Part shown: in pieces, positions 5,633 to 19,412 of the stretch
Layout of the letters: each line of letters begins with the position of its first letter
Numbering within the stretch: position 1 is the stretch's first letter
Virus record (IMG/VR): IMGVR_UViG_3300025771_000186
Span: 1 to 23,949 of that record
DNA length: 23,949 bases
Direction: 5' to 3' (one strand)
From: a virus
Translations under genes and position numbers: made by a program
Notes under the pieces: generated by a model
The model's database searches: none
What the model saw: only the letters and a program-made list of their open reading frames with translations
What the model was told of the DNA's origin: nothing

Positions 5633-7189
5633 ATGGCTATTCCCTTTTTAAATCACTTAGACTTACGCAGCGTATCGGAATTAAGAAACGCGCTGTTACA
5701 CTTAACAACAGAGGCATCTGCAACAGATGTAGAAGGTAAAATTATTTATGATACTGGTACAAACAGTCTTAAATATTATAATGGTTCTGTATGGGTTAAT
5801 CTTGATGGATCAGGTGATATATCTTCTGTAACTGCCGGAGCTGGTTTAACAGGTGGTGGATCAGACGGAGCAGTAACACTCAATGTTGGTCAGGGTAATG
5901 GTATTGTTGTAGCAGCGGATACTGTATCTCACGCGGATACTTCTAGCGTAAGTGATTTATCACCAAGCTCACGTACTTATATTACTGGGCTTACTTTTGA
6001 CACATATGGTCACGTACAAACCATTAGTACGGGTACAGAAACAGTTGTTGATACAGATAGATATGTAAATAGCGCTTCATTTAATACCGGTACTGGTGTT
6101 TTAACTCTTACAAGAGCTGGTAGTGATACAGCTACTGTTACAGTTGATTTAGATGGGCGTTACCAACCAGCAGGTTCATATGACAACTATGTATCTTGGA
6201 CAATTCAAGATGGCGATACAACGTCTTATCCAATTACTTCCGGTGATACATTACAAATTGCAAGCGGTACGGAAATTATTTCTAATTTTACTGCTGATGA
6301 CGTATTAACTATTAGCCACGCTAATGTTACGCGTTCAAATACAAGTGACAGCTCATCTCCAACATCTGGTGGTAATATTTCTGTAATTGATTCGATTACA
6401 ACAAATGCTCGAGGTCACGTTACGGCAGTTAACACAAAAACAATCACATTGCCGGTTGACGCTGATGTTGATGTTAGTGTATCAAACCTTGTAACTCGTT
6501 TAGGACAGATTACGGGCAATGCTACAATTGGGGGCGCTTCCTCAACTATTACAGTTCCTGGAGATTTAGTTGTAACAGGTACAACAACAACCAATAATGT
6601 TGAAGTTGTTTCTACGTCTAACGGTGTAATTTTTGAAGGTAATGCTGCTGATGAAAACGAAGGTACTTTATTAGCTGGTACTCTTACTGCAGATAGAGTA
6701 TATACATTACCCGATGCAACTGGAACTGTTGCTTTAACATCAGATATTGGTAATGGAACACTTACTGTTCAAGGCACAGGTGCTTTAGGCGGTACAGGAA
6801 CATTCACCGCTAATCAATCTGGTAATACTACAATTAGTATTTCTCACGACGATACCTCAACACAGGCTTCAGTAGATAACTCAGGGCTTACAGTTATTCA
6901 AGATGTAACTCTTGATACTTATGGTCACGTTACTGGTCTTGGGTCTGCTAACTTAACAAGTGGTATTGACGGCAGAATTACTGCAAGACAATATTCAGCT
7001 ACTATTACTGATACAGCTACAGTAACTCATAGTTTAGGAACTAGAGATGTAATTGTACAACTTTATGATGTAACAACTTATGATACGGTTTATGCTGGTG
7101 TAGAAAGAACTTCTACAAATGCAATTGATGTTACATTTGCATCAACACCAACAAACTCTATTAGAGTATTGGTACAAAAGATAGGTTAA
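5633..7189 (+). CDS. Tail fibre protein with DTYGHV repeats
   Basis: A 518-residue Thr-, Ser-, Gly- and Val-rich beta-structural protein. Residues 1-60 form a short N-terminal unit (MAIPFLNHLDLRSVSELRNA, then IIYDTGTNSLKYYNGSVW). After that come GDISSVTAGAGLTGGG and other fibre repeats. Two DTYGHV copies (GLTFDTYGHVQTIS and DVTLDTYGHVTGLG) plus a related NARGHVTAV copy mark a repeated strand-turn unit. A segment around 300-360 has the TLPDATGTVAL element common in fibres. The last 60 residues (TVTHSLGTRDVIVQLYDVTT and onward, ending LVQKIG) look like a compact C-terminal tip. No enzyme motif is seen. It is probably trimeric and involved in host attachment. The assignment rests on composition and repeats. 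Confidence 0.85.
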   Translation: MAIPFLNHLDLRSVSELRNALLHLTTEASATDVEGKIIYDTGTNSLKYYNGSVWVNLDGSGDISSVTAGAGLTGGGSDGAVTLNVGQGNGIVVAADTVSHADTSSVSDLSPSSRTYITGLTFDTYGHVQTISTGTETVVDTDRYVNSASFNTGTGVLTLTRAGSDTATVTVDLDGRYQPAGSYDNYVSWTIQDGDTTSYPITSGDTLQIASGTEIISNFTADDVLTISHANVTRSNTSDSSSPTSGGNISVIDSITTNARGHVTAVNTKTITLPVDADVDVSVSNLVTRLGQITGNATIGGASSTITVPGDLVVTGTTTTNNVEVVSTSNGVIFEGNAADENEGTLLAGTLTADRVYTLPDATGTVALTSDIGNGTLTVQGTGALGGTGTFTANQSGNTTISISHDDTSTQASVDNSGLTVIQDVTLDTYGHVTGLGSANLTSGIDGRITARQYSATITDTATVTHSLGTRDVIVQLYDVTTYDTVYAGVERTSTNAIDVTFASTPTNSIRVLVQKIG

Positions 7190-7206: not shown

Positions 7207-10200
7207 ATGGCAAATCGCTTTCTTAATAACATAAGAATAAACGATGAGTACACTCTGCCCTCAACGGATGGAGATGCTAATCAGATAATTCAAACAGACG
7301 GTGCTGGTAATTTATCATTTGTAGACTTAAGCGCTGTTGAAGGTGCGCAGTCAAACTTAGTATACTTTGATGTAAAGAACTCTTCTGGTTCTACTATAAA
7401 CAAAGGGAAAGGTGTGATGGCCGTTGGAACAGATGGAAACTCTGGTCATATTCTTATTGATGAGATGGTTGCCGATGGAACGGTAGAGCCTAAATATTTT
7501 CTTGGGGTCTTAGAGACAACGGTAGCTAACGGCGGTTTTGCTAGAGTAATATCATTTGGGCAGCTTGATCAGTTTAATACAACGGGTCAAAATGGCGAGA
7601 CCTGGAATGATGGACAAATATTATGGTGTGATCCTGATAGCCCTGGAGATTTTACAATAACAGAACCTGACGGCCCAAACGTTAAGATAGCTGCTGCCTT
7701 TATATTAAACTCGTCTACAAACGGAAAGATACAGGTAAGGGTACAAGCTAACGAGGGTATACACGACCTGCACGACACAAAGATAACGTCGCAGGTAGAT
7801 GGTGACGTATTAGTTTGGGATAACACTACAGGTGTATGGTTCAATGACAGTACGTTAAATGTAGACTATACTAATGGTAGAGTAGGTATTGGGACAACTA
7901 GTCCTGAAACTAATTTACAGATTGGTGAAGGCACTGGAACGCAAAGACTTTTACTTTATGGAGCTAATTCATTAAATACATCATCTGAAATAATACTTGC
8001 TGATGCAAGTATTGGTCCTGCTGTTTATAGGTACGGTGCAGGTATTCGATTTGATTCAAATAGCAATATATTATCATTAAGATCTTTTTTTGATGGATCT
8101 GCTTCTCAAGATGTTTCTTTTATTGATTTATACAGAAACACAGCTGTTGAAAACACTCCTATAAGAATTAATTACGACACTAGTTTTTCTGGCAACGTTG
8201 GCATCGGGACGACTAGTCCTAGTGCTAAATTAGAAGTTGATCTAAACTCATCAAATTCTTACAATTCTGCAACATTGACTACACCAGTTGTAGCTGTAGC
8301 TAACAGAAACTCAAGCAATGTAAACAATCAAGCTGCTGGTCTTCACTTGTATGCTACAGGTTGGGCTGGAAGTACAACAGGTGTTATTTCTTTAAATGCC
8401 ATTCAGATTGGTGGTAATTCTAGTACAGCTGACTTCGCTATTCAAACTAGGAATAATGGGACTTACGCTGAGAAGTTTAGACTTACAGCAGCAGGAAACG
8501 TCGGGATCGGGACGGCTAGTCCTGGGGCTAAGTTGGAAGTAAATACTAGTGTTGAAAATGACGGAATAAGATTAATAGGATCCTCAGTTAACACTAGGTT
8601 GACAATAGAAAATTCAGGGGCACCCACAGGTAATAGAGTTATGTCTATTACAAATAATTCTAGCGTCCCAGGGTTAATTATTCAAAGACTAAATAACGAC
8701 TACACTTTTTCTAGCAATTTATTAAGAATTACTCCTGACGGCAACGTCGGAATCGGGACGAATAGTCCGCAGGTAAAATTAGAAACAAGAGGAACCGCAA
8801 GTAATACAATTTCATCAACAACAGCTGTTTCTAAAATAGTTGGAAACGTTGGTGCAGGTTCTGTCGGTTTATATTCTGGCTCACTTGCTGGGTCTCCTAC
8901 TTATGGAACTTGGATTCAATCAATGAGAGAAACTGACAATTTAGCTTTTCAATTATTGTTAAATCCAAACGGCGGCAACGTAGGTATCGGAACGACTAGT
9001 CCTAATACTAAGTTACACGTAGCTGGGATAGTTCAAGTAACTGAAAGTGGAAATACTGCTTTTTATGGAGGTAATTACGTTAGAGTGTTTGGTGATCAAA
9101 ATTACGGATTTAGAAACACTGGTGGTGCTTACATAGCAAACATATCAATGAGCGGAAACTCATATTTTAACGGAGGCAACGTCGGTATCGGGACAACTAA
9201 CCCACAGGCTAAGCTTCAGGTTAATGGTATAACTAACAGTGTTGGTTTTCAAACGGAGCAATCAAACGCAACTTATAATCTGCTATCAAGAGATTCAGCA
9301 GGGAATCCAGCTCTTTATGTGCAGTCTGCTAATAGCGACACAAATCAACCTATAGCTAAGTTTTTTTCCGGCAACGCTAGTCCTAATCAAGGATCGTTGG
9401 TTCTTAATGTAGGTAAAGATAAATCCTACTTTACAAACACTAACGTTGGAATCGGGACTACTAGTCCTGAAAAAGACCTTCATATTTCTTCAGCAGAACC
9501 AACAATAAGACTTCAAGATTCAGATGGTTCCAATCAGTGGGGGCAAGTAAGACAAACAAATGCTAATTTAGTGTTTACTGTTAGAAACGGCACTTCTAAC
9601 GGTCAAATGAATTTCCAAACATTCGACGGAACAACAACAGTAAATACAGTAACACTTAAAACAGGTAATCAAGTACAATTTAATCAATACGGTTTAGGCA
9701 CGTATACAGGTACGGCGACACAGCGTCTCGCCGTAGACTCTAGCGGTAATGTTATAGAGATACCAATCGGATCAGGGCCAGTAGATGGAAGCGGTACAGC
9801 TAACTACGTAACCAAGTGGAGTGATGCTGACACGATTACAAATTCTGTAATTTATGATAATGGGACTAACGTCGGGATTGGAACCACTAGTCCCACGCAG
9901 AAGCTTGATGTTAATGGAAATATAAGACTATCTTCAGATGCTCCTACTATCGTCGCTACTTCAACTAATAATGCCTCTGGTTTAAGATACAATACAACAG
10001 GCACCGCTAGTGACACTCATAGATTTCAGTATAATGGAGCTACGCAATTAAACATAAAAAGCTCAGGCAACGTCGGTATCGGAACGACTAGTCCAGCGCA
10101 AAAGCTACACGTTGTTGGAAATGGAAGATTTACAGGTGGCTTTTTCGACGTAGGACACGGAGTATCAACTGAAGAAGTAGCCTTAAGCATAGGTAATTCT

Positions 10201-13200
10201 AGAACAGATAATGGATATGCATATATTGATTTAATTGGCGACACCACCTATACGGACTATGCCTTAAGAATTATTAGAGGAAATACAGGACCAAATACTA
10301 TTTCTCAAATTAATCACAGAGGTACTGGAGATTTTGAGATTAGAACCACAGACGCAGCAAATATTACTTTTGACACAGCAAGCTTGGAGCGATTGAGAAT
10401 TACTTCCTCCGGCAACGTCGGGATCGGGACGACCTCACCTACTACTAAATTAGATATATTAAGAGCAACGGGAGCTCCTAGTTTAACTGCTGATAATGGC
10501 GCTTTTACTATCTCAGATACTTTTGTTGGGGCGCAAATGGGTTCTATCCCTACATCACCGTATACGTTTTGGATACAAGGCAAGGATAGGAGAAATAATG
10601 GTGGGTCATTCCCAATTTCATTAAATCCAGTTGGCGGTAACGTTGGGATTGGGACGACTAGCCCTAGTGAGAAGTTAGAGGTTGCAGGAAATGTAAAACT
10701 CAACTCAGGAGCTTTGATTATATCAGGTACTCCTGCAGGCCAAGGTGCTGAAACAAGGTACATAAGTGGAGCAGCCACTACAAACGACCTTTGGTTTAAT
10801 GTACCTACTAATGGTAGATACAGGTTTGCTGTAGCGGACTCTCAAAAAGTTGAAATAACATCTGCAGGAAACGTCGGGATCGGAACGACTAGTCCTGCTA
10901 CTAAGTTACATGTTAACGGTGATATTGGCGCATACACTTCTGATTGGGTAGCCACTACTTCTGGCTCTAGGTTATTGATGAAAACGTTTGCTAGTACAGG
11001 AGACACATATTCATTAATTCAAGCACAAGATATTGGAGGTAACAGTAACAATGCTTTAGTTTTGCAGCCTTATGGAGACAACGTCGGTATCGGAACGACC
11101 ACCCCGGCACAAAAACTCCACGTTTCAGGTAATGCTAGGGTAACGGGTGCATACTACGATTCAAATAACTCTCCTGGAACTAGCGGCCAGGTTCTGTCTT
11201 CTACTGCCACGGGTACTGATTGGGTGTCACTATCTGAAATATCAGGTGTAGATGGAACAGGTACGGCTAATTATGTGGCTAAGTGGAGTGACACAGATAC
11301 GATTACTGATTCTGTTATTTATGACACTGGAACTAACGTTGGTATTGGGACGACTGTGCCCGATGCTAAATTACAAGTTGTACGATCTGCGGCGTTACCA
11401 AATGGCACAAATAGTGACTCAGGAAACTGGATAGAATCAGCGGCATTTAGGATAACAAGTGGTAATAATGGATTGTCTGTAGGTGTTGACAATGTTTCTA
11501 ATTCTAGAACATCGTGGATCCAGTCCGGGCATAGAGATACGCAATATGCATCCTCTTTAAGTGATTCAGAATTATTATTACAACCGCTAGGCGGCAACGT
11601 TGGGATTGGGACGGCTAGTCCTAACCAAAAATTACATATTTCGGGTAATGTTAGGATTGATGATGGATATACCTTAAGCTGGGGAGCTGATACAACTAAG
11701 ATAGCTGGGAACAGTTCAAATAATACTCTGTCTTTAAAAACATCAAGCACGGATAGACTTTATATAAATTCCTCAGGCAACATTGGGATTGGTACGACCA
11801 GTCCTGAAGAATTACTTCATATTAAAAATGGGGACGTTGGGGTTACACCTTATGATTTAGGAACAGGGCTAAATATAGAAGGCACAACCTCCAATGTTGG
11901 AATTAATATAATTTCTAGTAATACTGGCCAAGGAAGAATTTACTTTGCTTCGCCGTCCAGCAATACTGCGGGGGCTATAGAATATAATCATGACGCTACT
12001 CTTAGTAATGGTTTTATGAAATTTAGGACTGGCAATTCTGAAAGAATGCGGATTGACGGTTCTGGCAACGTTGGGATTGGTACGACTAACCCGCAAGCAC
12101 AACTACAAATAGATACACCTGAAACTAACGGCGCGGGTCAAGGGCTTAGAATTAATAGGCCATCAGCTGGGACTCATTATCACTCAGTAGAGTTTGCTAC
12201 AAATGGAACTGTAGATTGGTCTGTGGGTCAAAACAGTAACGATGCTTTTGAAATATATGAAGATGGGGTTGCTGTATTAACAAGATTTACTATAAAAGAA
12301 GGCGGCAACGTCGGGATTGGGACGACTAGTCCACAAAGCAGACTTGAGGTTGTAAGTACTATTCCATCATCTATACCTGCACTGGGGCTAGATTCTAATC
12401 TTTTTCAAGTAGGTGGAGGTACTTATGGAACAATGTTCGGGTCCATAAGTAATGGCAATGGTTATATTCAGCAGCAAAGATTTGATGGAACAGCCACCGC
12501 TTATAGTTTATTGCTACAGCCAAACGGGGGTAACGTTGGTATTGGAACACCTAGTCCTCAATTTAAGCTTGACATAGATGGTGGGGCAGCAGTCCCATTA
12601 AGATTAAATAGTACTGCTGATTATCAATTAAAATTAACTTCTTCTGATTCGTGGACAGGTATTGAGTTTGATGATGGAGCAGCGTCTGCAGCAGATCATA
12701 TTTGGCACAATGGGCAAAATCAAACTTTTGCCTTTGGAGGTGGAGGTAGTAATGTTTCTGGAAAAAAACTTCATGTACACGGAGCGACAACTATAGGTAG
12801 CGGTTTAGCATCAACAGCCGCTCCAACAAATGGTCTTTTAGTTGAGGGCAACGTCGGTATTGGGACTACTAGTCCTGGTTTTAAACTATCCGTTGCAATG
12901 GACGGGGATACCTATAGCGCAGACTTTTACCAAAGTAATAGCGGAACAGACAAATACAATGCCATTCGTGTAAGAGGTGCAATGACTAGTGCGGTTGGAT
13001 ACTATGGCATTGGTGGCTCGACTGCAGGCAATCCTGCATTTAGAGATGCCTTTGTAGTTGGAACGCAGTCAGCGCATAGTTTTAATTTAGCAACTAACGA
13101 TACTGCTAGAATGACTATTACTAGCAGCGGAAACGTCGGGATTGGAGAGACTAATCCTGGGGCTAAGTTAGAGGTAAACGGAAATATCAAATTAAGCAGT

Positions 13201-14163
13201 ACGGTTGGCTCTACAGCAACACCAAGCAATATCTGGTTAGGTAATGATTATAGTAATGGGCAAACTAGAGACAAATTAAAGATATATCTGTATAATTCTG
13301 GAACTGAACAATATGGGTTTTCTGTAGGTAACCAAGGAGATGTTCAATATCATTCAAATCAAACACACGATTTTTATGTAGACAATTCTTTTAAAGTAAG
13401 AATTGACTCTTCGGGCAACGTTGGGATTGGAACCACTAGCCCTGGGGCCAAGCTAACGGTTGCTGGTTCTGCTATTTCTATTTCAAATGGCTGGACAGGA
13501 AACCACGATATTTTATTTGTTGGGGGTTCAGCAAGTAGTACAGGGAGCGCTAACCAAACTGCCGCAAGAATTAGAAGTACAGCATCTGTTCCAGGCGGGC
13601 TCGCTGTTGGAGATTTGCTTTTTACAGTGAACAGCGGTGATGCATTTGTTGACGCATTATACATTAAAGAAGACGGCAACGTTGGGATTGGAACCACTAG
13701 TCCCGACCAGCTATTAGTAGTAGCTGATTCCTCAACAAATGCAGAAAGAGGAATTATTATAAGAAACTCTCATGGCGATACATCTGCAGACGCTTCTTTA
13801 CGTATAGATGGATACGCTGGTTCATTTATAGATTTCTATAGAAACTCTGGACTTCGTTGGAAATTTAATAGAGTAGCATTCTCTGACGACTTTAAAATCT
13901 CAGCCGCTGGAGCTGGCGGAGCTGGAGATGTAATGTATTTTGATTACAACACAGGAAACGTAGGTATTGGAACAACTACACCTTCATCTAAACTTCAAGT
14001 CGCTGGCGGTGTACAGATGGCTGACGACACAGATACAGCTTCGGCATCTAAAGTAGGGACACTAAGGTATAGAGCAGACGCAAACAATAGCTATGTAGAT
14101 ATGTGTATGCAGACTGGAGCATCGACATACGAGTGGATTAATATAGTACAAAACAACTGGTAA
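7207..14163 (+). CDS. Giant modular tail fibre / adhesin with 24 GNVGIGTTSP repeats
   Basis: A 2318-residue fibre-type protein. Residues 1 to about 220 are a unique N-terminal region (MANRFLNNIRINDEYTLPST at the start; a compact domain near 45-180), presumably anchoring it to the virion. From residue 225 on, 24 copies of GNVGIGTTSPxxKLxV occur every 61-142 residues, with variable beta-rich cassettes between them. Many cassettes end in MRI or LRITSSG, others in LLLQPxGG, directly before the repeat. The C-terminal cap (about 2270-2318) reads TASASKVGTLRYRADANNSY and onward, ending EWINIVQNNW. No peptidase S74 (endosialidase chaperone) domain is visible, although this repeat type often accompanies one. 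The likely role is a very long trimeric adhesin with exchangeable modules. The stop is directly followed by the ATG of a second fibre gene built from the same modules. The structural role is well supported; the receptor is unknown. Confidence 0.9.
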   Translation: MANRFLNNIRINDEYTLPSTDGDANQIIQTDGAGNLSFVDLSAVEGAQSNLVYFDVKNSSGSTINKGKGVMAVGTDGNSGHILIDEMVADGTVEPKYFLGVLETTVANGGFARVISFGQLDQFNTTGQNGETWNDGQILWCDPDSPGDFTITEPDGPNVKIAAAFILNSSTNGKIQVRVQANEGIHDLHDTKITSQVDGDVLVWDNTTGVWFNDSTLNVDYTNGRVGIGTTSPETNLQIGEGTGTQRLLLYGANSLNTSSEIILADASIGPAVYRYGAGIRFDSNSNILSLRSFFDGSASQDVSFIDLYRNTAVENTPIRINYDTSFSGNVGIGTTSPSAKLEVDLNSSNSYNSATLTTPVVAVANRNSSNVNNQAAGLHLYATGWAGSTTGVISLNAIQIGGNSSTADFAIQTRNNGTYAEKFRLTAAGNVGIGTASPGAKLEVNTSVENDGIRLIGSSVNTRLTIENSGAPTGNRVMSITNNSSVPGLIIQRLNNDYTFSSNLLRITPDGNVGIGTNSPQVKLETRGTASNTISSTTAVSKIVGNVGAGSVGLYSGSLAGSPTYGTWIQSMRETDNLAFQLLLNPNGGNVGIGTTSPNTKLHVAGIVQVTESGNTAFYGGNYVRVFGDQNYGFRNTGGAYIANISMSGNSYFNGGNVGIGTTNPQAKLQVNGITNSVGFQTEQSNATYNLLSRDSAGNPALYVQSANSDTNQPIAKFFSGNASPNQGSLVLNVGKDKSYFTNTNVGIGTTSPEKDLHISSAEPTIRLQDSDGSNQWGQVRQTNANLVFTVRNGTSNGQMNFQTFDGTTTVNTVTLKTGNQVQFNQYGLGTYTGTATQRLAVDSSGNVIEIPIGSGPVDGSGTANYVTKWSDADTITNSVIYDNGTNVGIGTTSPTQKLDVNGNIRLSSDAPTIVATSTNNASGLRYNTTGTASDTHRFQYNGATQLNIKSSGNVGIGTTSPAQKLHVVGNGRFTGGFFDVGHGVSTEEVALSIGNSRTDNGYAYIDLIGDTTYTDYALRIIRGNTGPNTISQINHRGTGDFEIRTTDAANITFDTASLERLRITSSGNVGIGTTSPTTKLDILRATGAPSLTADNGAFTISDTFVGAQMGSIPTSPYTFWIQGKDRRNNGGSFPISLNPVGGNVGIGTTSPSEKLEVAGNVKLNSGALIISGTPAGQGAETRYISGAATTNDLWFNVPTNGRYRFAVADSQKVEITSAGNVGIGTTSPATKLHVNGDIGAYTSDWVATTSGSRLLMKTFASTGDTYSLIQAQDIGGNSNNALVLQPYGDNVGIGTTTPAQKLHVSGNARVTGAYYDSNNSPGTSGQVLSSTATGTDWVSLSEISGVDGTGTANYVAKWSDTDTITDSVIYDTGTNVGIGTTVPDAKLQVVRSAALPNGTNSDSGNWIESAAFRITSGNNGLSVGVDNVSNSRTSWIQSGHRDTQYASSLSDSELLLQPLGGNVGIGTASPNQKLHISGNVRIDDGYTLSWGADTTKIAGNSSNNTLSLKTSSTDRLYINSSGNIGIGTTSPEELLHIKNGDVGVTPYDLGTGLNIEGTTSNVGINIISSNTGQGRIYFASPSSNTAGAIEYNHDATLSNGFMKFRTGNSERMRIDGSGNVGIGTTNPQAQLQIDTPETNGAGQGLRINRPSAGTHYHSVEFATNGTVDWSVGQNSNDAFEIYEDGVAVLTRFTIKEGGNVGIGTTSPQSRLEVVSTIPSSIPALGLDSNLFQVGGGTYGTMFGSISNGNGYIQQQRFDGTATAYSLLLQPNGGNVGIGTPSPQFKLDIDGGAAVPLRLNSTADYQLKLTSSDSWTGIEFDDGAASAADHIWHNGQNQTFAFGGGGSNVSGKKLHVHGATTIGSGLASTAAPTNGLLVEGNVGIGTTSPGFKLSVAMDGDTYSADFYQSNSGTDKYNAIRVRGAMTSAVGYYGIGGSTAGNPAFRDAFVVGTQSAHSFNLATNDTARMTITSSGNVGIGETNPGAKLEVNGNIKLSSTVGSTATPSNIWLGNDYSNGQTRDKLKIYLYNSGTEQYGFSVGNQGDVQYHSNQTHDFYVDNSFKVRIDSSGNVGIGTTSPGAKLTVAGSAISISNGWTGNHDILFVGGSASSTGSANQTAARIRSTASVPGGLAVGDLLFTVNSGDAFVDALYIKEDGNVGIGTTSPDQLLVVADSSTNAERGIIIRNSHGDTSADASLRIDGYAGSFIDFYRNSGLRWKFNRVAFSDDFKISAAGAGGAGDVMYFDYNTGNVGIGTTTPSSKLQVAGGVQMADDTDTASASKVGTLRYRADANNSYVDMCMQTGASTYEWINIVQNNW
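9784..9867 (+). repeat. Fibre module 'DGxGTANYVxKWSDxDTIT', copy 1 of 3
   Basis: This segment encodes DGSGTANYVTKWSDADTITN and a following VIYDNGTN that leads straight into repeat copy 8. The same protein module occurs at 11251-11334 in this gene and at 14308-14370 at the beginning of the next gene. The module is conserved in protein with many silent third-base changes, which points to older duplication or import rather than very recent copying. Confidence 0.85.
11176..11304 (+). repeat. Inter-gene paralogous segment, copy inside the 2318-residue fibre
   Basis: It encodes GTSGQVLSSTATGTDWVSLS, then EISGVDGTGTANYVAKWSD. The matching copy lies at 14233-14361 in the next gene and reads almost the same in protein (GTSGQVLSSTGTATDWVSLS, EISGVDGTGTANTVAMWSD). 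The DNA differs at many third positions but keeps the same length and frame. It links the middle of one fibre gene with the start of the next. Confidence 0.88.
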
Positions 14164-17100
14164 ATGAGTAAAAAATATATCACCGACGTTATAAAGATTG
14201 ACGGTCAACTACTAGACGGTAACGGCTCCGCAGGAACATCTGGGCAGGTTCTATCATCCACAGGCACAGCCACAGACTGGGTATCCTTGAGTGAAATATC
14301 TGGAGTGGATGGAACAGGCACGGCTAACACTGTAGCTATGTGGAGTGACTCTGATACGATTACAGATGCGCCTATAACCATAAGTGGTAATGATGCTACT
14401 TTTTCAGGGAGTGTAACAGCAGCAAATTTATTTTTAGGAAGTTCTTCAGTTAGAGTTTCACCGGGAGGAAGTGGTGAACTTGGATTAAATTATAATACTG
14501 GAGCAACTGGTAGTTTAGTTTGGTATGCTGGTACAACTTCTTCTAAGTTTAGTGTAACTAACGCAGGTAATGCAACTTTTGCAGGAACTATAGCGGTACA
14601 AGGTACGGGTGATTCTTATTTTACAGGCAACGTCGGGATTGGAGAGACTAATCCTTTGGAAAAATTACACGTTAACGGGGGGAATGTATTAATTCAAGGA
14701 GGTCCATCAACCACTTCTCAAAGTGAATTAGGGTTTACTAATGCTTTTGATACGGCATTTATTAGAAGTAGGTATACTAATCCAAGTGCGACTACGGAAA
14801 CATATTTAGCATTTCATACAAATACTGCAGGCGATAACAACGGTACAGTAGCGGAACAAATGCGTATTGCAGGTAATAAAGTAGGAATTGGGACAACTAA
14901 TCCTTCATATAAATTAGATGTAAAAGGGGGCGGTGGTTTTAACGATATATTAAACTTATCTGGAGCGCAGCCGAGGTTCCTGCTAATTGAAACTGATACA
15001 ACAGATACAAATTACGAAATATTAGTTTCAGGCGGAACTTTATTTTTTAGAACAACCAATGATGCTATTACAAGTTTTTCAAATAAGCTTTCTTTAACTC
15101 AAGCTGGAGTCCTTACTCTTAATGGATATGGTGCTGGTATTCTTACAACAAACGCAAGCGGACAAGTATCAGTAGATACTACTACGTATATTCCCACTAC
15201 AGATTACAATGATTTTGTAAATGTTGCTGGCGATACAATGACTGGCGTATTAACTATTTTAAATTCTAGCGATCCAAAATTAATACTCCAAACCTCTCCA
15301 GGAGATAGTAGCGATTGGAATTATATAAATTTTGTTGGCAGAGATACGGTTCGAGACGGGTATATTGGTACAGAATTCAGCGGAGATATGAGGGTGTATT
15401 CTGATAAAAATACTTCCAGCGTTGAATTAACCGCTAATGGTATTATTTTAAATGGTGGCGATGTTGGTATTGGAGCGACTAGTCCTGAAAACAAACTACA
15501 CGTTCAACAGCCTTCTGCATATACAGGCATACATACAACAGCGGGTATTAGAGTAAAATCAGATGCAGCTAGTTCTATTGGAAGTTATCACGGAACTATA
15601 GCTTTATCAAGGGGTACAGGTTCAGTAGCAATTTCAGCAGTTCAAGAAGCTACTGATAGTGACGTGATGGGTATGGCATTTTTTACACATCCATCAGCCA
15701 CAGGAGGCGATGCTTCTGTAGAGCAAATGCGTATTGACGCAGACGGCAACGTTGGGATCGGAACGACTTCCATAGACGAAAAATTGCATTTATATAATAA
15801 TGGGGATGTGGGAATAAGATTGCAAAATCAAGCCGACACATCTGGCAATACTTGGAGATTATGGCAGGACAACTGGAACGGGGCTAGTAGTTTTACATTT
15901 AATATAGATTATGGTTCAACCAATATTATTACTGCACTAACCAATGGCCGTGTCGGAATTGGGACGGATAATCCTGGGGCTAGACTTCAAATAGCCGGTA
16001 GTGACAGCTTTAATGCTCTTAAAATAACCGACTCAGGTAACGGTGACGGGTTCAAAGTCTCAAGTGTCACAACTCAAGGTACATATATTCAGGCGTACGA
16101 CGCCTCACATGTACAGACTATAAAGTTAGATGCTAGAACCGATAATGGAACAAGACACACCTATTTTAATGGAGGCGGCTACGTAGGGATTGGAACGACT
16201 GATCCACAAGAAAAATTACACGTAAATGGAAATCTTGGTTTAGGTACATCTCCTACAATTAAATGGACAAGTAATACTTTAAGATTTGAACCATTTGGAG
16301 ATTATATTCCTGTTGTTGTACTTGGCGGCACTACATCATATGCCCCAAGATTTGAAATAAAAAATGCAGGCGATGCAGCTACAGTAGTAATGTTAGATGG
16401 TTCTGGCAACTCTTATATTAACACAGGCAACGTTGGGATTGGAACTGCTAGTCCTGGTGAGAAACTTACAGTAAATGGGGCTATAGTATGGCAGGGAGCA
16501 TTAGTTTCTTCACAAACTAACAGCGGTGTTTTAGATAGGTCAGGTAATGATTTAAGAATTAGGGCTTATGGCGCAACCGCTGGAACTGGAAATTTAGTAT
16601 TTAGAACAGGTGGCGGTGGCGGTTCTGTTGATTCAGAAGCAATGCGCATTGATTCTAGCGGCGACGTAGGGATTAATGAAACTAACCCGTCTCAAAAACT
16701 ACATGTCAGCGGCAATTTAAGAGTAACAGGCTTTTACTATGACTCCACTAATTCAGCTGGGACTACCGGTCAGGTACTTCGTGTTACAAGCGGTGGCACT
16801 GGCTGGGATACATTAACCGCTTCAGACGTGGGGGCGGCTACAACTTCACACACCCATGCAGCCGCTGATATAACTAGCGGAACATTTGCAGACGCTAGAA
16901 TAGCATTAACTAACATTACACAACATACAGATCCTAAATATCTAAGAAGTGATGCATCAGATACTGCCTCCGAACTAATTACTTTCCAAAAAGGTATTTC
17001 CCAAGACGGTAATGCTAAATTCTATACCTGGAGAGCTTTAAACAATACTTCAGATACCTCTAATCAATATTATAGAATTGCTAGAATTACTAGTACACAG

Positions 17101-18681
17101 TCTTCTCGTTTTGCAATAGAATTAGCCGGTAGAAGCACCAGTTACGCTGATCCAAACATTCCTGCAATTGGATTTATTGTTGGGCAGTTAAATAATGATA
17201 ATGATTACGACATTGTATTCTATAACCATAGTACAGGTACAAGCGAAGTAGTATTAGAAGTAGGTCAAGTAGATGTTAGCACTACAGATACAGACATTTA
17301 TATAAGAACAATACAGTATGCTGAAATTTCGGCTACAGGACATATTAGTGATGGTTCTATTACAACTTATGGAGGAGATAATGCTTCAACAACTGAACCG
17401 GCCAATTACGTAGCAGCTACAGAAGTTACAGTATGGAACTCAGGAAACGACGGGTCAGGTTCCGGATTAGATGCTGACTTGTTGGATGGTAATCACGCAT
17501 CAGCATTTGCACTGTCTTCACACACACACGACGACAGGTACTACACTGAGACAGAGATAGGAAACTTCTTCTCTGGCACGACAGCGATAACAGGTTACAG
17601 TAAGACAAATTGGGATGCGGCTTACACATACTCTCAGGTAGGGCATCTGCCACTTACAGCCGGGTCAAGTTATCCTTTGACAGGAGCTTTACACTTTGGG
17701 GATGATTATAATTATATAGAAAAAAATGCAAGCTCTGATATGCTAATGGTAGCAAATAGGCATATTACATTTTCAGATGTAATAAGCGGTGTTGTTAACG
17801 AAAGAATGCGTATTGAAGAAGGCGGCAACGTTGGGATTAATGAAACTAACCCGTCTCAAAAACTACACGTCAATGGTAATGCAAGAGTCACAGGATTTTA
17901 CTATGACTCAACCAATTCAGCGGGTACGCCTGGATATGTATTAAGCTCAACTTCTGGTGGCACTGAGTGGGTTACAGCGGATTCTGTTATAAGTTATAAA
18001 TGGTATGCAGTGTCTGACGGCGGTTTAGCATCTGCTAGTATTAGCAATAGCACGTCTCTTGACTTCCAAGGCGGGACAGGTATATCTACCTCAACAAGCG
18101 GTTCTGGATCTGCCTACACAATTGAATTTACAAATACAGATAGAGGTTCGGCACAAAATATATTTAAAAATGTTGCGGGGCCAACAGGACAACCCACGAT
18201 TGTTGCAGCATCAAACAACGATACTGTAACGCTTAAAGACGATAGGTTTATAACTATAACAACAAACAACAGTACTAAGACTGCTCAGTTTTCTCCAAAA
18301 GCGTTAGAGGTTTGTGATTTTGTTTTAGCATTCAAATCGCCATCAGCGCAGACAAATTATTTAGTGTGGGTAAATGGTTCTTACCAAAGCACAACAGGCC
18401 TTGAGACATATAAGACAGCCTTGTACGCAGGGGAGATTGACGTGGTTAAAATAATATCAGATGTTACAGTATCAGGTGTATATATAGATGTATACGAAAC
18501 AGGAGCACCTACAACGCCGATATGGTCATCTGGTAGTACTAACTTGACAGCAAACACGCTTATGTCGTTTTCGCCATCAGGTGCCACGTTCTCATCAAGC
18601 GATCAGCTATATGCAACTATAGCGATACCGACAAGCGCAACCGTAGTTTATAGATTAGATTTTGGACTTTTATATAGTTAA
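14164..18681 (+). CDS. Second large modular tail fibre with 9 diverged GNVGIGTTSP repeats
   Basis: A 1505-residue fibre protein whose ATG directly follows the stop of the previous gene. After a short unique start (MSKKYITDVIKIDGQLLDGN), residues 24-66 are paralogous to the middle of the 2318-residue fibre. Nine repeats follow, less uniform than upstream: forms include GNVGIGETNP, NKVGIGTTNP, GRVGIGTDNP, GYVGIGTTDP and GNVGINETNP. Between repeat 8 and repeat 9 is a different architecture: ALTNITQHTDPKYLRSDASD, a beta-rich domain (about 970-1070), then GSGLDADLLDGNHASAFALS and SHTHDDRYYTETE, which are classic tail-fibre repeat motifs. The last 180 residues form a unique C-terminal tip domain (from about KALEVCDFVLAFKSPSAQTN to RLDFGLLYS) that may bind the receptor. 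No S74 chaperone domain is seen. It probably assembles with, or alternates with, the upstream fibre. Confidence 0.9.
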   Translation: MSKKYITDVIKIDGQLLDGNGSAGTSGQVLSSTGTATDWVSLSEISGVDGTGTANTVAMWSDSDTITDAPITISGNDATFSGSVTAANLFLGSSSVRVSPGGSGELGLNYNTGATGSLVWYAGTTSSKFSVTNAGNATFAGTIAVQGTGDSYFTGNVGIGETNPLEKLHVNGGNVLIQGGPSTTSQSELGFTNAFDTAFIRSRYTNPSATTETYLAFHTNTAGDNNGTVAEQMRIAGNKVGIGTTNPSYKLDVKGGGGFNDILNLSGAQPRFLLIETDTTDTNYEILVSGGTLFFRTTNDAITSFSNKLSLTQAGVLTLNGYGAGILTTNASGQVSVDTTTYIPTTDYNDFVNVAGDTMTGVLTILNSSDPKLILQTSPGDSSDWNYINFVGRDTVRDGYIGTEFSGDMRVYSDKNTSSVELTANGIILNGGDVGIGATSPENKLHVQQPSAYTGIHTTAGIRVKSDAASSIGSYHGTIALSRGTGSVAISAVQEATDSDVMGMAFFTHPSATGGDASVEQMRIDADGNVGIGTTSIDEKLHLYNNGDVGIRLQNQADTSGNTWRLWQDNWNGASSFTFNIDYGSTNIITALTNGRVGIGTDNPGARLQIAGSDSFNALKITDSGNGDGFKVSSVTTQGTYIQAYDASHVQTIKLDARTDNGTRHTYFNGGGYVGIGTTDPQEKLHVNGNLGLGTSPTIKWTSNTLRFEPFGDYIPVVVLGGTTSYAPRFEIKNAGDAATVVMLDGSGNSYINTGNVGIGTASPGEKLTVNGAIVWQGALVSSQTNSGVLDRSGNDLRIRAYGATAGTGNLVFRTGGGGGSVDSEAMRIDSSGDVGINETNPSQKLHVSGNLRVTGFYYDSTNSAGTTGQVLRVTSGGTGWDTLTASDVGAATTSHTHAAADITSGTFADARIALTNITQHTDPKYLRSDASDTASELITFQKGISQDGNAKFYTWRALNNTSDTSNQYYRIARITSTQSSRFAIELAGRSTSYADPNIPAIGFIVGQLNNDNDYDIVFYNHSTGTSEVVLEVGQVDVSTTDTDIYIRTIQYAEISATGHISDGSITTYGGDNASTTEPANYVAATEVTVWNSGNDGSGSGLDADLLDGNHASAFALSSHTHDDRYYTETEIGNFFSGTTAITGYSKTNWDAAYTYSQVGHLPLTAGSSYPLTGALHFGDDYNYIEKNASSDMLMVANRHITFSDVISGVVNERMRIEEGGNVGINETNPSQKLHVNGNARVTGFYYDSTNSAGTPGYVLSSTSGGTEWVTADSVISYKWYAVSDGGLASASISNSTSLDFQGGTGISTSTSGSGSAYTIEFTNTDRGSAQNIFKNVAGPTGQPTIVAASNNDTVTLKDDRFITITTNNSTKTAQFSPKALEVCDFVLAFKSPSAQTNYLVWVNGSYQSTTGLETYKTALYAGEIDVVKIISDVTVSGVYIDVYETGAPTTPIWSSGSTNLTANTLMSFSPSGATFSSSDQLYATIAIPTSATVVYRLDFGLLYS
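14233..14361 (+). repeat. Inter-gene paralogous segment, copy at the start of the 1505-residue fibre
   Basis: Partner of the segment at 11176-11304. It includes the third copy of the DGTGTAN...WSDxDTIT module. Because it sits right after the first 23 residues of the new gene, the second fibre may have been founded by duplication of a block of the first one, or the two may share a pool of modules. Confidence 0.88.
14626..17853 (+). repeat. Array of nine diverged GNVGIG-type repeats
   Basis: Copies begin near 14626, 14875, 15457, 15745, 15946, 16177, 16426, 16660 and 17824. The core VGI is kept in all nine, and GIG in seven; the last two read VGINETNP. Where the second residue is Asn it is again AAC. 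Spacing is again a multiple of three but more irregular, with a gap of more than 1.1 kb between the last two copies that holds LDGNHASAF and SHTHDDRY-type fibre motifs. Confidence 0.9.
16660..16785 (+). repeat. Duplicated NETNPSQKLHV...FYYDSTNSAGT block, copy 1
   Basis: It encodes GDVGINETNPSQKLHVSGNL, then RVTGFYYDSTNSAGTTGQVL. The second copy is at 17824-17949. The 35 bases at 16669-16703 are identical to 17833-17867, and the rest is near-identical, so this is the most recent-looking duplication in the fibre region. A more distant relative (YYDSNNSPGTSGQVL) lies near 11152. Confidence 0.9.
17824..17949 (+). repeat. Duplicated NETNPSQKLHV...FYYDSTNSAGT block, copy 2
   Basis: Partner of the block at 16660-16785. 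It encodes GNVGINETNPSQKLHVNGNA, then RVTGFYYDSTNSAGTPGYVL. It lies directly before the unique C-terminal tip region, so the two copies bracket the TNITQHTDPKYL to RYYTETE part of the fibre. Confidence 0.9.
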
Positions 18682-18686
18682 TAAAT

Positions 18687-19028
18687 ATGGTAACATTTAA
18701 TTGGGACTGCACAACCGTTGAGGTTATGCTAACAGAGGGAGACTTAAACAACGTTGTGTATAACGTAGAGTGGATACTTACGGGAATATCGGATCAGCTT
18801 GATACCGAAGGAGAACCGTACACCGCATTTGCTGAAGGACAGCAAAAATTAAACACAAGTAACATTACTGAATTCATTTCGTTCAATGACTTGACAAATG
18901 AAATAGTTACGCAATGGGTGAAGGATGCTATGGGGCCAACACACGTGTCTATCCAGGAATCTAATGTTAGAAATAATATTGAGGCTCAGATAAATCCTGT
19001 GACAGCCGTGATGAAAATACAAAATTAA
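18687..19028 (+). CDS. Small virion-type protein, first of a tandem paralogous pair
   Basis: This 113-residue acidic protein has no cysteine-rich, membrane or catalytic motif. It begins TFNWDC at 3-8, followed by a beta pattern (VVYNVEWILTGISDQLD) and a C-terminal half with a helix (DLTNEIVTQWVKDAMG). It aligns without gaps to the next gene, about half of positions identical by my count. Proteins with this FNWDC...VVYNVxWxLTG pattern occur, from memory, next to fibre and structural genes of marine phages, but I cannot name a function. The gene follows the large fibre by 5 bases. A role as a minor virion protein or fibre chaperone is inferred from position. Confidence 0.8.
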   Translation: MVTFNWDCTTVEVMLTEGDLNNVVYNVEWILTGISDQLDTEGEPYTAFAEGQQKLNTSNITEFISFNDLTNEIVTQWVKDAMGPTHVSIQESNVRNNIEAQINPVTAVMKIQN

Positions 19029-19070: not shown

Positions 19071-19412
19071 ATGACAACTTTTAATTGGGATTGTAGAACA
19101 GTGGATGTATATCCAACAAGCGGCGACAACACAGATGTAGTATACAACGTGCATTGGCGCTTAACAGGTGTATCTGATCAGCTAGACGCGAATGATAATC
19201 CGTATTCGGCTACTGTAATTGGAACACAAACATTAAGTACAGAGGAGATTGTAGACTTTGTACCATTTGAAGACCTAACTCACGAACAAATTGTAACTTG
19301 GGTACAAGATGCAATTGGAGCTGAGCAGGTAACTCAAATGGAAGACAATGTAAATAATCAAATTGATAGCTTAATTACACCAACGTCTGTTACCAAAACT
19401 ATTGAATTGTAG
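19071..19412 (+). CDS. Small virion-type protein, second of a tandem paralogous pair
   Basis: Also 113 residues and collinear with its upstream neighbour. Shared elements are TFNWDC, VVYNVxWxLTG, SDQLD, PYxA, DLTxE and WVxDAxG. It differs mainly in charged surface positions and at the C-terminus. A 42-base A-rich gap precedes it (19029-19070), one of the longest non-coding gaps here, giving an A-rich leader just before ATG. Tandem duplication with divergence to about half identity suggests two related but distinct jobs, for example two positions in the same virion structure. The function is unknown. Confidence 0.82.
   Translation: MTTFNWDCRTVDVYPTSGDNTDVVYNVHWRLTGVSDQLDANDNPYSATVIGTQTLSTEEIVDFVPFEDLTHEQIVTWVQDAIGAEQVTQMEDNVNNQIDSLITPTSVTKTIEL

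Follow-up and report, generated by a model that had tools for sequence, protein, structure and literature searches.

Invertible tail-fibre segments and shufflons need inverted sites together with a dedicated recombinase; with Mu Gin, P1 Cin, p15B Min and the shufflons, repeats of ~19-26 bp within fibre or pilus coding sequence serve to swap ends. The locus described here, a phage tail-fibre gene in which 30-base islands recur between cassettes, differs in that we saw neither inverted island copies in 120 loci (34 with two or more copies) nor, in five larger related contigs that may be incomplete, a resolvase/invertase, a tyrosine integrase or a reverse transcriptase, the last being the criterion for a diversity-generating retroelement.

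In the T-even adhesin Gp38, recombination between conserved motifs swaps specificity (Tetart 1998; Trojet 2011, both cited after PMC12529663 and PMC6851490). As in Gp38, conserved motifs here stand between hypervariable segments of a receptor-binding protein, and modules switch at these motifs. Each Gp38 protein has 5-10 motifs, all of them short polyglycine stretches, whereas here a 14-residue loop occurs 24-31 times between cassettes of 61-142 aa, and silent homogenisation has been measured across many genes. The fibre works like Gp38 yet is not a member of that group, its motif being plainly different (NVGIGTTSP) and its ports many more.

According to PMC10769870, a capping loop of 14 residues (R656-H669, F752-H765) limits each beta-helix cleft in the MAT fibres of Bdellovibrio bacteriovorus, with a consensus V-G-G/N-..-P-X-X-X-L that seems one symbol short as printed. 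In a search of solved structures, the MAT fibres 8OND (E 4e-9 over the repeat), 8OML and 8OJN aligned through our motif, the common element being a loop VGIGTxxPxxxLxV, also of 14 residues. All 31 copies in the DNA studied here fit [VI]GI[GN]xxx[PI]xxxL and agree with the capping-loop consensus VG.(G/N)...P...L. Since NVGIGTTSPxxKLH matches the capping loop in length and pattern, a structural boundary would explain the conservation at the protein level, and the repeat would be the capping loop of a beta-helix fibre that is presumably trimeric; the single-chain fold prediction of one fragment was of low confidence (pLDDT 47). Unlike the fibre here, the MAT fibres sit on the surface of a predator and are shown with one or a few loops, and neither DNA-level conservation nor exchange junctions were found for them in the passages searched (PMC10769870).

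The relaxed recombination of phage Rad52-like proteins (Redbeta/Erf) likewise uses short or diverged homologies and produces mosaics, and the pairing segments of 23-34 bp given there match the 30-nt island; it is described mainly for temperate phages of the lambda type, which have no dedicated repeated ports, and phage genomes are usually without repeats (PMC3945230). Adhesin swapping at conserved motifs is known; for a DNA-level signature with sharp 30-nt limits no description was found in the literature searched, where neither VGIGTT nor NVGIGTTSP was found either.

A repeat with codons of its own

The window, i.e. the whole stretch of DNA analysed (23,949 nucleotides, positions 1 to 23,949 of IMGVR_UViG_3300025771_000186), is a 23.9 kb virus record and a fragment, and carries groEL/groES, small genes without assigned function, three fibre-type genes side by side and a large terminase (Table 1). 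The terminase shares 45% identity with Flavobacterium phage terminases and also matches those of Cellulophaga, Tenacibaculum and Maribacter phages, which makes a flavobacterial host likely; its top match is an uncultured Caudoviricetes (66%). The phage-encoded GroEL (Cpn60) and GroES (Cpn10) pair lies upstream of the fibre genes (341-2153), with a small Cys/Gly/Lys-rich protein (CGCGCDCQCGK) in between (2587-2835), and two tandem DUF7936 paralogues (18687-19028 and 19071-19412) stand directly 3' of the fibre genes. An Rfam search of the window gave no match. Of the fibre genes, fib2 matches tail fiber phrog_9942 (E 8e-97) and phrog_18345, and a C-terminal S74 autoprotease/chaperone domain had no Pfam match in fib1-3, so that the fibre is not filed in the S74 subfamily.

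Table 1. Fibre genes, islands and shared cassettes in the window
Feature	Position	Strand	Basis or remark
Three adjacent fibre-type genes (fib1-3)	5633-7189, 7207-14163, 14164-18681		
Tail-fibre gene fib2	7207..14163	+	ORF, 2318 aa; 24 islands, 23 cassettes of 61-142 aa; motif scan
fib2 N-terminal domain	7207..7872	+	62-90% aa identity in close relatives; unrelated sequence after island 1
Second fibre gene fib3	14164..18681	+	ORF, 1505 aa; 7 further islands
Island 1 (RVGIGTTSP)	7876..7905	+	motif scan; switch point in relatives L130, L131, L136, L137, L138
Island 2	8191..8220	+	motif scan
Island 3	8494..8523	+	motif scan
Island 4	8740..8769	+	motif scan
Island 5	8974..9003	+	motif scan
Island 6	9175..9204	+	motif scan
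Island 7	9439..9468	+	motif scan
Island 8	9865..9894	+	motif scan
Island 9	10066..10095	+	left edge, cassette common to L137
Island 10	10411..10440	+	right edge, cassette common to L137
Island 11	10636..10665	+	motif scan
Island 12	10867..10896	+	motif scan
Island 13	11077..11106	+	motif scan
Island 14	11332..11361	+	motif scan
Island 15	11593..11622	+	motif scan
Island 16	11776..11805	+	left crossover, 97% identical cassette common to L143 (alignment)
Island 17	12064..12093	+	right crossover, cassette common to L143 (alignment)
Island 18	12304..12333	+	motif scan
Island 19	12529..12558	+	motif scan
Island 20	12847..12876	+	motif scan
Island 21	13129..13158	+	left edge, cassette common to L020
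Island 22	13414..13443	+	right edge, cassette common to L020
Island 23	13675..13704	+	motif scan
Island 24	13954..13983	+	C-terminal segment beyond it common to L286, L230
Island 25 (fib3)	14626..14655	+	motif scan
Island 26 (fib3)	15457..15486	+	left edge, stretch common to L326
Island 27 (fib3)	15745..15774	+	right edge, stretch common to L326
Island 28 (fib3)	15946..15975	+	motif scan
Island 29 (fib3)	16426..16455	+	motif scan
Island 30 (fib3)	16660..16689	+	motif scan
Island 31 (fib3)	17824..17853	+	motif scan
Cassette common to L137	10096..10410	+	94% identity (interior)
Cassette common to L143	11806..12063	+	97% DNA identity; neighbouring L143 cassettes unrelated; found in one contig only
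Cassette common to L020	13159..13413	+	81% identity (interior)

A preliminary description had reported 24 repeat copies with unusual codons at 7879-13983, which we confirmed in the ORF at 7207-14163; it had missed the same core in the next gene, where the peptide (G)NVGIGTTSPxxKLxV recurs in 7 more copies, and the known structural role of this peptide. As it had stated, Asn is always AAC (27 of 27 Asn copies, P ~4e-14 at the gene's own 32%), Ser is mostly AGT (17/21, background 19%) and the first Thr is frequently ACG (14/24 copies in fib2, 16/26 overall, background 11%). The second Thr is ACT in 22 of 25 copies against a background of 35%, Val is GTC in 13 of 30 (5%) and Ile is ATC in 11 of 31 (4%). 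The repeat as a whole is indeed unlike its surroundings, with a GC3 of 0.44 compared to 0.255 in the rest of the genes and to 0.23 expected for the same amino acids, and the hexamer ACTAGT, said to be carried by many copies, is found 13 times in fib2; outside the two fibre genes the window has none. Codon context was rejected as the cause of the bias, as the next base had no effect on codon choice.

Third-position entropy, the check that had been proposed, was lower at G-1, N0, G2, G4, T6 and S7 (numbered from the Asn) and marginally so at I3, but unreduced at V1, T5 and P8. V1 and T5 vary, yet their codons differ from those of the gene at large, and P8 lies near background; at these three sites there may be a shift in codon preference without fixation. 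Third-position variation in the repeat was not equal to that of conserved codons elsewhere in the gene. Silent variation was not reduced at the downstream Leu, Lys and Val of the repeat, and the Leu twelve residues after the Asn, conserved in 31/31 copies and written with five codons at background-like entropy, provides a clean internal control.

Tandem duplication of whole modules was rejected, as TRF found no tandem repeats in the window and the fib2 cassettes are mostly unrelated to one another. There is a second, longer repeat (TANYVAKWSDxDTITxSVIYD...) at 9781-9888, 11185-11355 and 14242-14367, with 77-80% DNA identity, which lies ahead of an island at two fib2 sites and is found once more near the start of fib3.

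Silent likeness within ten codons

Viral contigs were fetched with a fully degenerate pattern that allows any codon for the peptide and is blind to silent bases. Loci fetched with silent bases fixed were left out of the dialect, codon-extent and exact-run tests, and kept for the exchange tests and, with class-matched controls, for the comparison of cassette sharers. In the codon-blind viral sample every third position varies between genes, and copies agree only within one gene: there are AT-rich genes that read AAT GTA GGT ATA GGT ACT ACA TCA CCA and others that read AAC GTC GGG ATC GGG ACG ACT AGT CCT. The silent bases are thus a per-gene 'dialect' and not one universal DNA target. In AT-rich viral genes the motif Ser is enriched in AGT as well as TCG relative to TCA/TCT, and AGT is still preferred over AGC in GC-rich ones.

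Among the 62 genes with at least three copies, within-gene silent identity was above that given by the gene's own codon usage from G-1 to P8, with nine of the ten codons at p<0.05 (I3, p=0.09) and excesses of +0.26 at G2, +0.30 at S7 and +0.23 at T6. There was no excess at L12 (-0.03) and V14 (-0.01), and the flanks, seven codons upstream and thirteen downstream, were about at expectation, position 10 being marginal. The island of ~30 bases proposed earlier therefore corresponds to the ten codons of GNVGIGTTSP, 30 nt. Mean silent identity of the core was 0.562 within a gene, 0.382 between GC3-matched genes and 0.397 by expectation (52 of 61 genes), beside 0.37, 0.38 and 0.42 at control Lys/Leu/Val positions. 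As the within-gene excess is limited to these ten codons, the 30-base island is real, general and gene-specific, and protein constraint does not explain the silent likeness.

Exact runs of at least 23 nt, a length that falls in the 23-27 bp given as the minimal pairing segment for Redbeta and short of the 31-34 bp for RecA (PMC3945230), were found in 42 of 1201 within-gene island pairs compared to 1.3 after silent recoding. In the window only 0.65% of island pairs have such a run, so that most of its islands would recombine as imperfect homology. Phages sharing a cassette were more alike in the silent positions of their other islands than matched non-sharers (0.510 vs 0.438, 37 pairs, p 4e-5), with the reservation that this and the other p-values are optimistic because contigs share sequence and gene pairs are phylogenetically non-independent.

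The motif was seen in viral contigs of very different GC, in Bacteroidota, Patescibacteria, Omnitrophota and Bdellovibrio relatives and in archaeal MAGs. A core excess of similar kind, though weaker (0.459 vs 0.369), is also seen in motif-bearing cellular genes, and the effect is therefore not purely a matter of phage ERF. Among cellular MAGs the motif is widespread (loci L335-L414), including Patescibacteria, Omnitrophota and Woesearchaeota.

Cassette switches at the islands

The preliminary description had suggested looking for recombination junctions within the repeat, and cassette switches do coincide with islands. The clearest case is 11785-12080, which is 97% identical to phage contig L143 inside and 25-50% immediately outside, with both junctions inside an island: the match takes in the 3' half of the first island and the 5' half of the second, and the outer sides are unrelated. 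Other shared stretches are bounded by islands at 10066-10459 (L137), 13129-13445 (L020) and 15463-15768 (L326). At the start of the repeat array, the N-domain (aa 1-222) matches 17 relatives and cassette 1 (aa 239-328) none at E<=0.01, and five relatives aligned on island 1 have 67-97% DNA identity before it and 27-38% at 45 to 105 bases after its start. Relatives whose N-domains are 62-78% identical cease to match just past island 1.

Across loci, BLAST HSPs contained one island where 26.6+-4.0 were expected at 65-75% identity, and one where 19.6+-3.3 were expected at 75-85%, while HSP ends fell in islands more often than by random placement (76 vs 27.9, and 36 vs 7.7 at 85-95%). Because the conserved motif may draw in BLAST extension, a second version of the test compared cassette interiors alone, stripped of their motifs. 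Matches then reached the island side at 26/26 ends at >=90% identity, a class of few exchanges (13 pairs), and at 49/60 ends at 80-90%, whereas below 80% identity ~44% of ends lay inside cassettes. On 45 of 50 sides, the cassette next to a shared one was unrelated. Pooling silent divergence over all HSPs mixes terminal islands of unrelated partners, and the result was not taken as evidence of constraint; islands inside homologous stretches amount to 6 cases, too few for use in silent divergence, a scarcity that is informative because homology rarely spans an island.

Probable homology ports and competing explanations

We consider it probable that the islands are homology ports for fibre module swapping which also encode the capping loop and are homogenised by recombination. 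In a long tail fibre of trimeric beta-helix/beta-prism type, the repeat would encode the loop that closes every module, and its first ten codons (30 nt, GNVGIGTTSP) would double as a common homology port at the DNA level. In a mixed infection, or on encounter with related prophage DNA, an ERF-type single-strand annealing protein or the host RecA would recombine two fibre genes inside two islands, and the cassette between them would be exchanged in frame with the fold boundary kept. Repeated crossover and gene conversion through the 30 bases would homogenise silent positions within a gene and among cassette-exchanging phages, the outcome being a dialect per gene or exchange community that is unlike the codon usage of the cassettes. 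An ERF annealase was found in 5/5 related contigs >50 kb (52-69 kb; E 1e-30 to 1e-33), which suggests ERF as the agent of exchange; none was found in eight smaller related contigs, which may be incomplete, and RecT was not found in the 13 related contigs. In recombining DNA of 78% identity, a phage Erf equals lambda Red (PMC3945230). Among the functions that had been offered for the islands, homology for recombination or gene conversion is thus well supported, by the cassette switching, by the homogenisation confined to 30 nt and by ERF in related contigs, and modules are probably swapped at the islands by homologous recombination. Recent spread accounts for the islands at most partially, because cassette-sharing phages share the dialect only moderately.

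The position of the junctions might also reflect selection at the fold boundary, if recombination were illegitimate and struck anywhere, only joins at the capping loop gave a protein that folds, and the silent likeness were a by-product of the loops having a common ancestor. In the solved relatives the loop marks a structural boundary, and folding would filter the products of any mechanism, but such selection does not predict a sharp ten-codon limit beyond which the Leu and Val of the loop, though just as conserved, drift freely. Moreover, most cassettes of the window are unrelated to each other, so recent whole-module duplication did not spread the loops. We regard this explanation as unlikely and infer that island homology, not fold-boundary selection alone, places the junctions. 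Inheritance of one GC-richer ancestral loop sequence that spread and has not yet ameliorated would account for the tilt towards AAC, GTC, ACG and AGT seen across GC classes, and for the positive linkage among silent sites (mean phi 0.143 vs 0.053 shuffled); the over-use of AAC, ACG, AGT and TCG across many lineages is not predicted by per-gene homogenisation alone. We nevertheless hold such inertia very improbable as the explanation, since in most gene pairs the cassettes beside the islands have diverged beyond alignment, the codons further down the loop itself now look like background and homogenisation within as opposed to between genes is clear, although a mixture of the two may apply.

A role in translation, with rare codons at module ends slowing the ribosome for folding or trimerisation, or accurate codons at critical residues, would fit the rarity of GTC, ATC, ACG and GGG in fib2; it is highly unlikely, given that genes with common codons are equally homogeneous at the same sites (e.g. 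L025, with a within-gene silent identity of 0.74 vs 0.44) and that cassette switching is left unexplained. Finally, the strong bias in the window, with ACTAGT in many copies and the palindrome GACTAGTC in 5, could point to a fixed DNA target, i.e. a binding or cleavage site for a nuclease, an invertase or shufflon-type recombinase, or a packaging or regulatory site. The protein or nuclease target suggested in the preliminary description is disfavoured and largely contradicted by the silent differences from gene to gene in the codon-blind sample, and the lack of inverted copies and of recombinase genes in the loci and contigs mentioned above also speaks against it; we give this explanation hardly any credence.

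Beyond homology ports as such, it is conceivable, though we hold it only tentatively, that second-order selection keeps the silent positions of the capping loop identical, so that standardised 30-nt ports are tuned to the minimal pairing length of the annealase and the dialect sets the trading partners for host-recognition modules. The findings connect fibre module swapping in environmental phages with a specific sequence of 30 bases concealed in silent positions, and make the cause of the strong mosaicism of receptor-binding genes testable. From the within-gene dialect it may be possible to read which phages exchange fibre parts.
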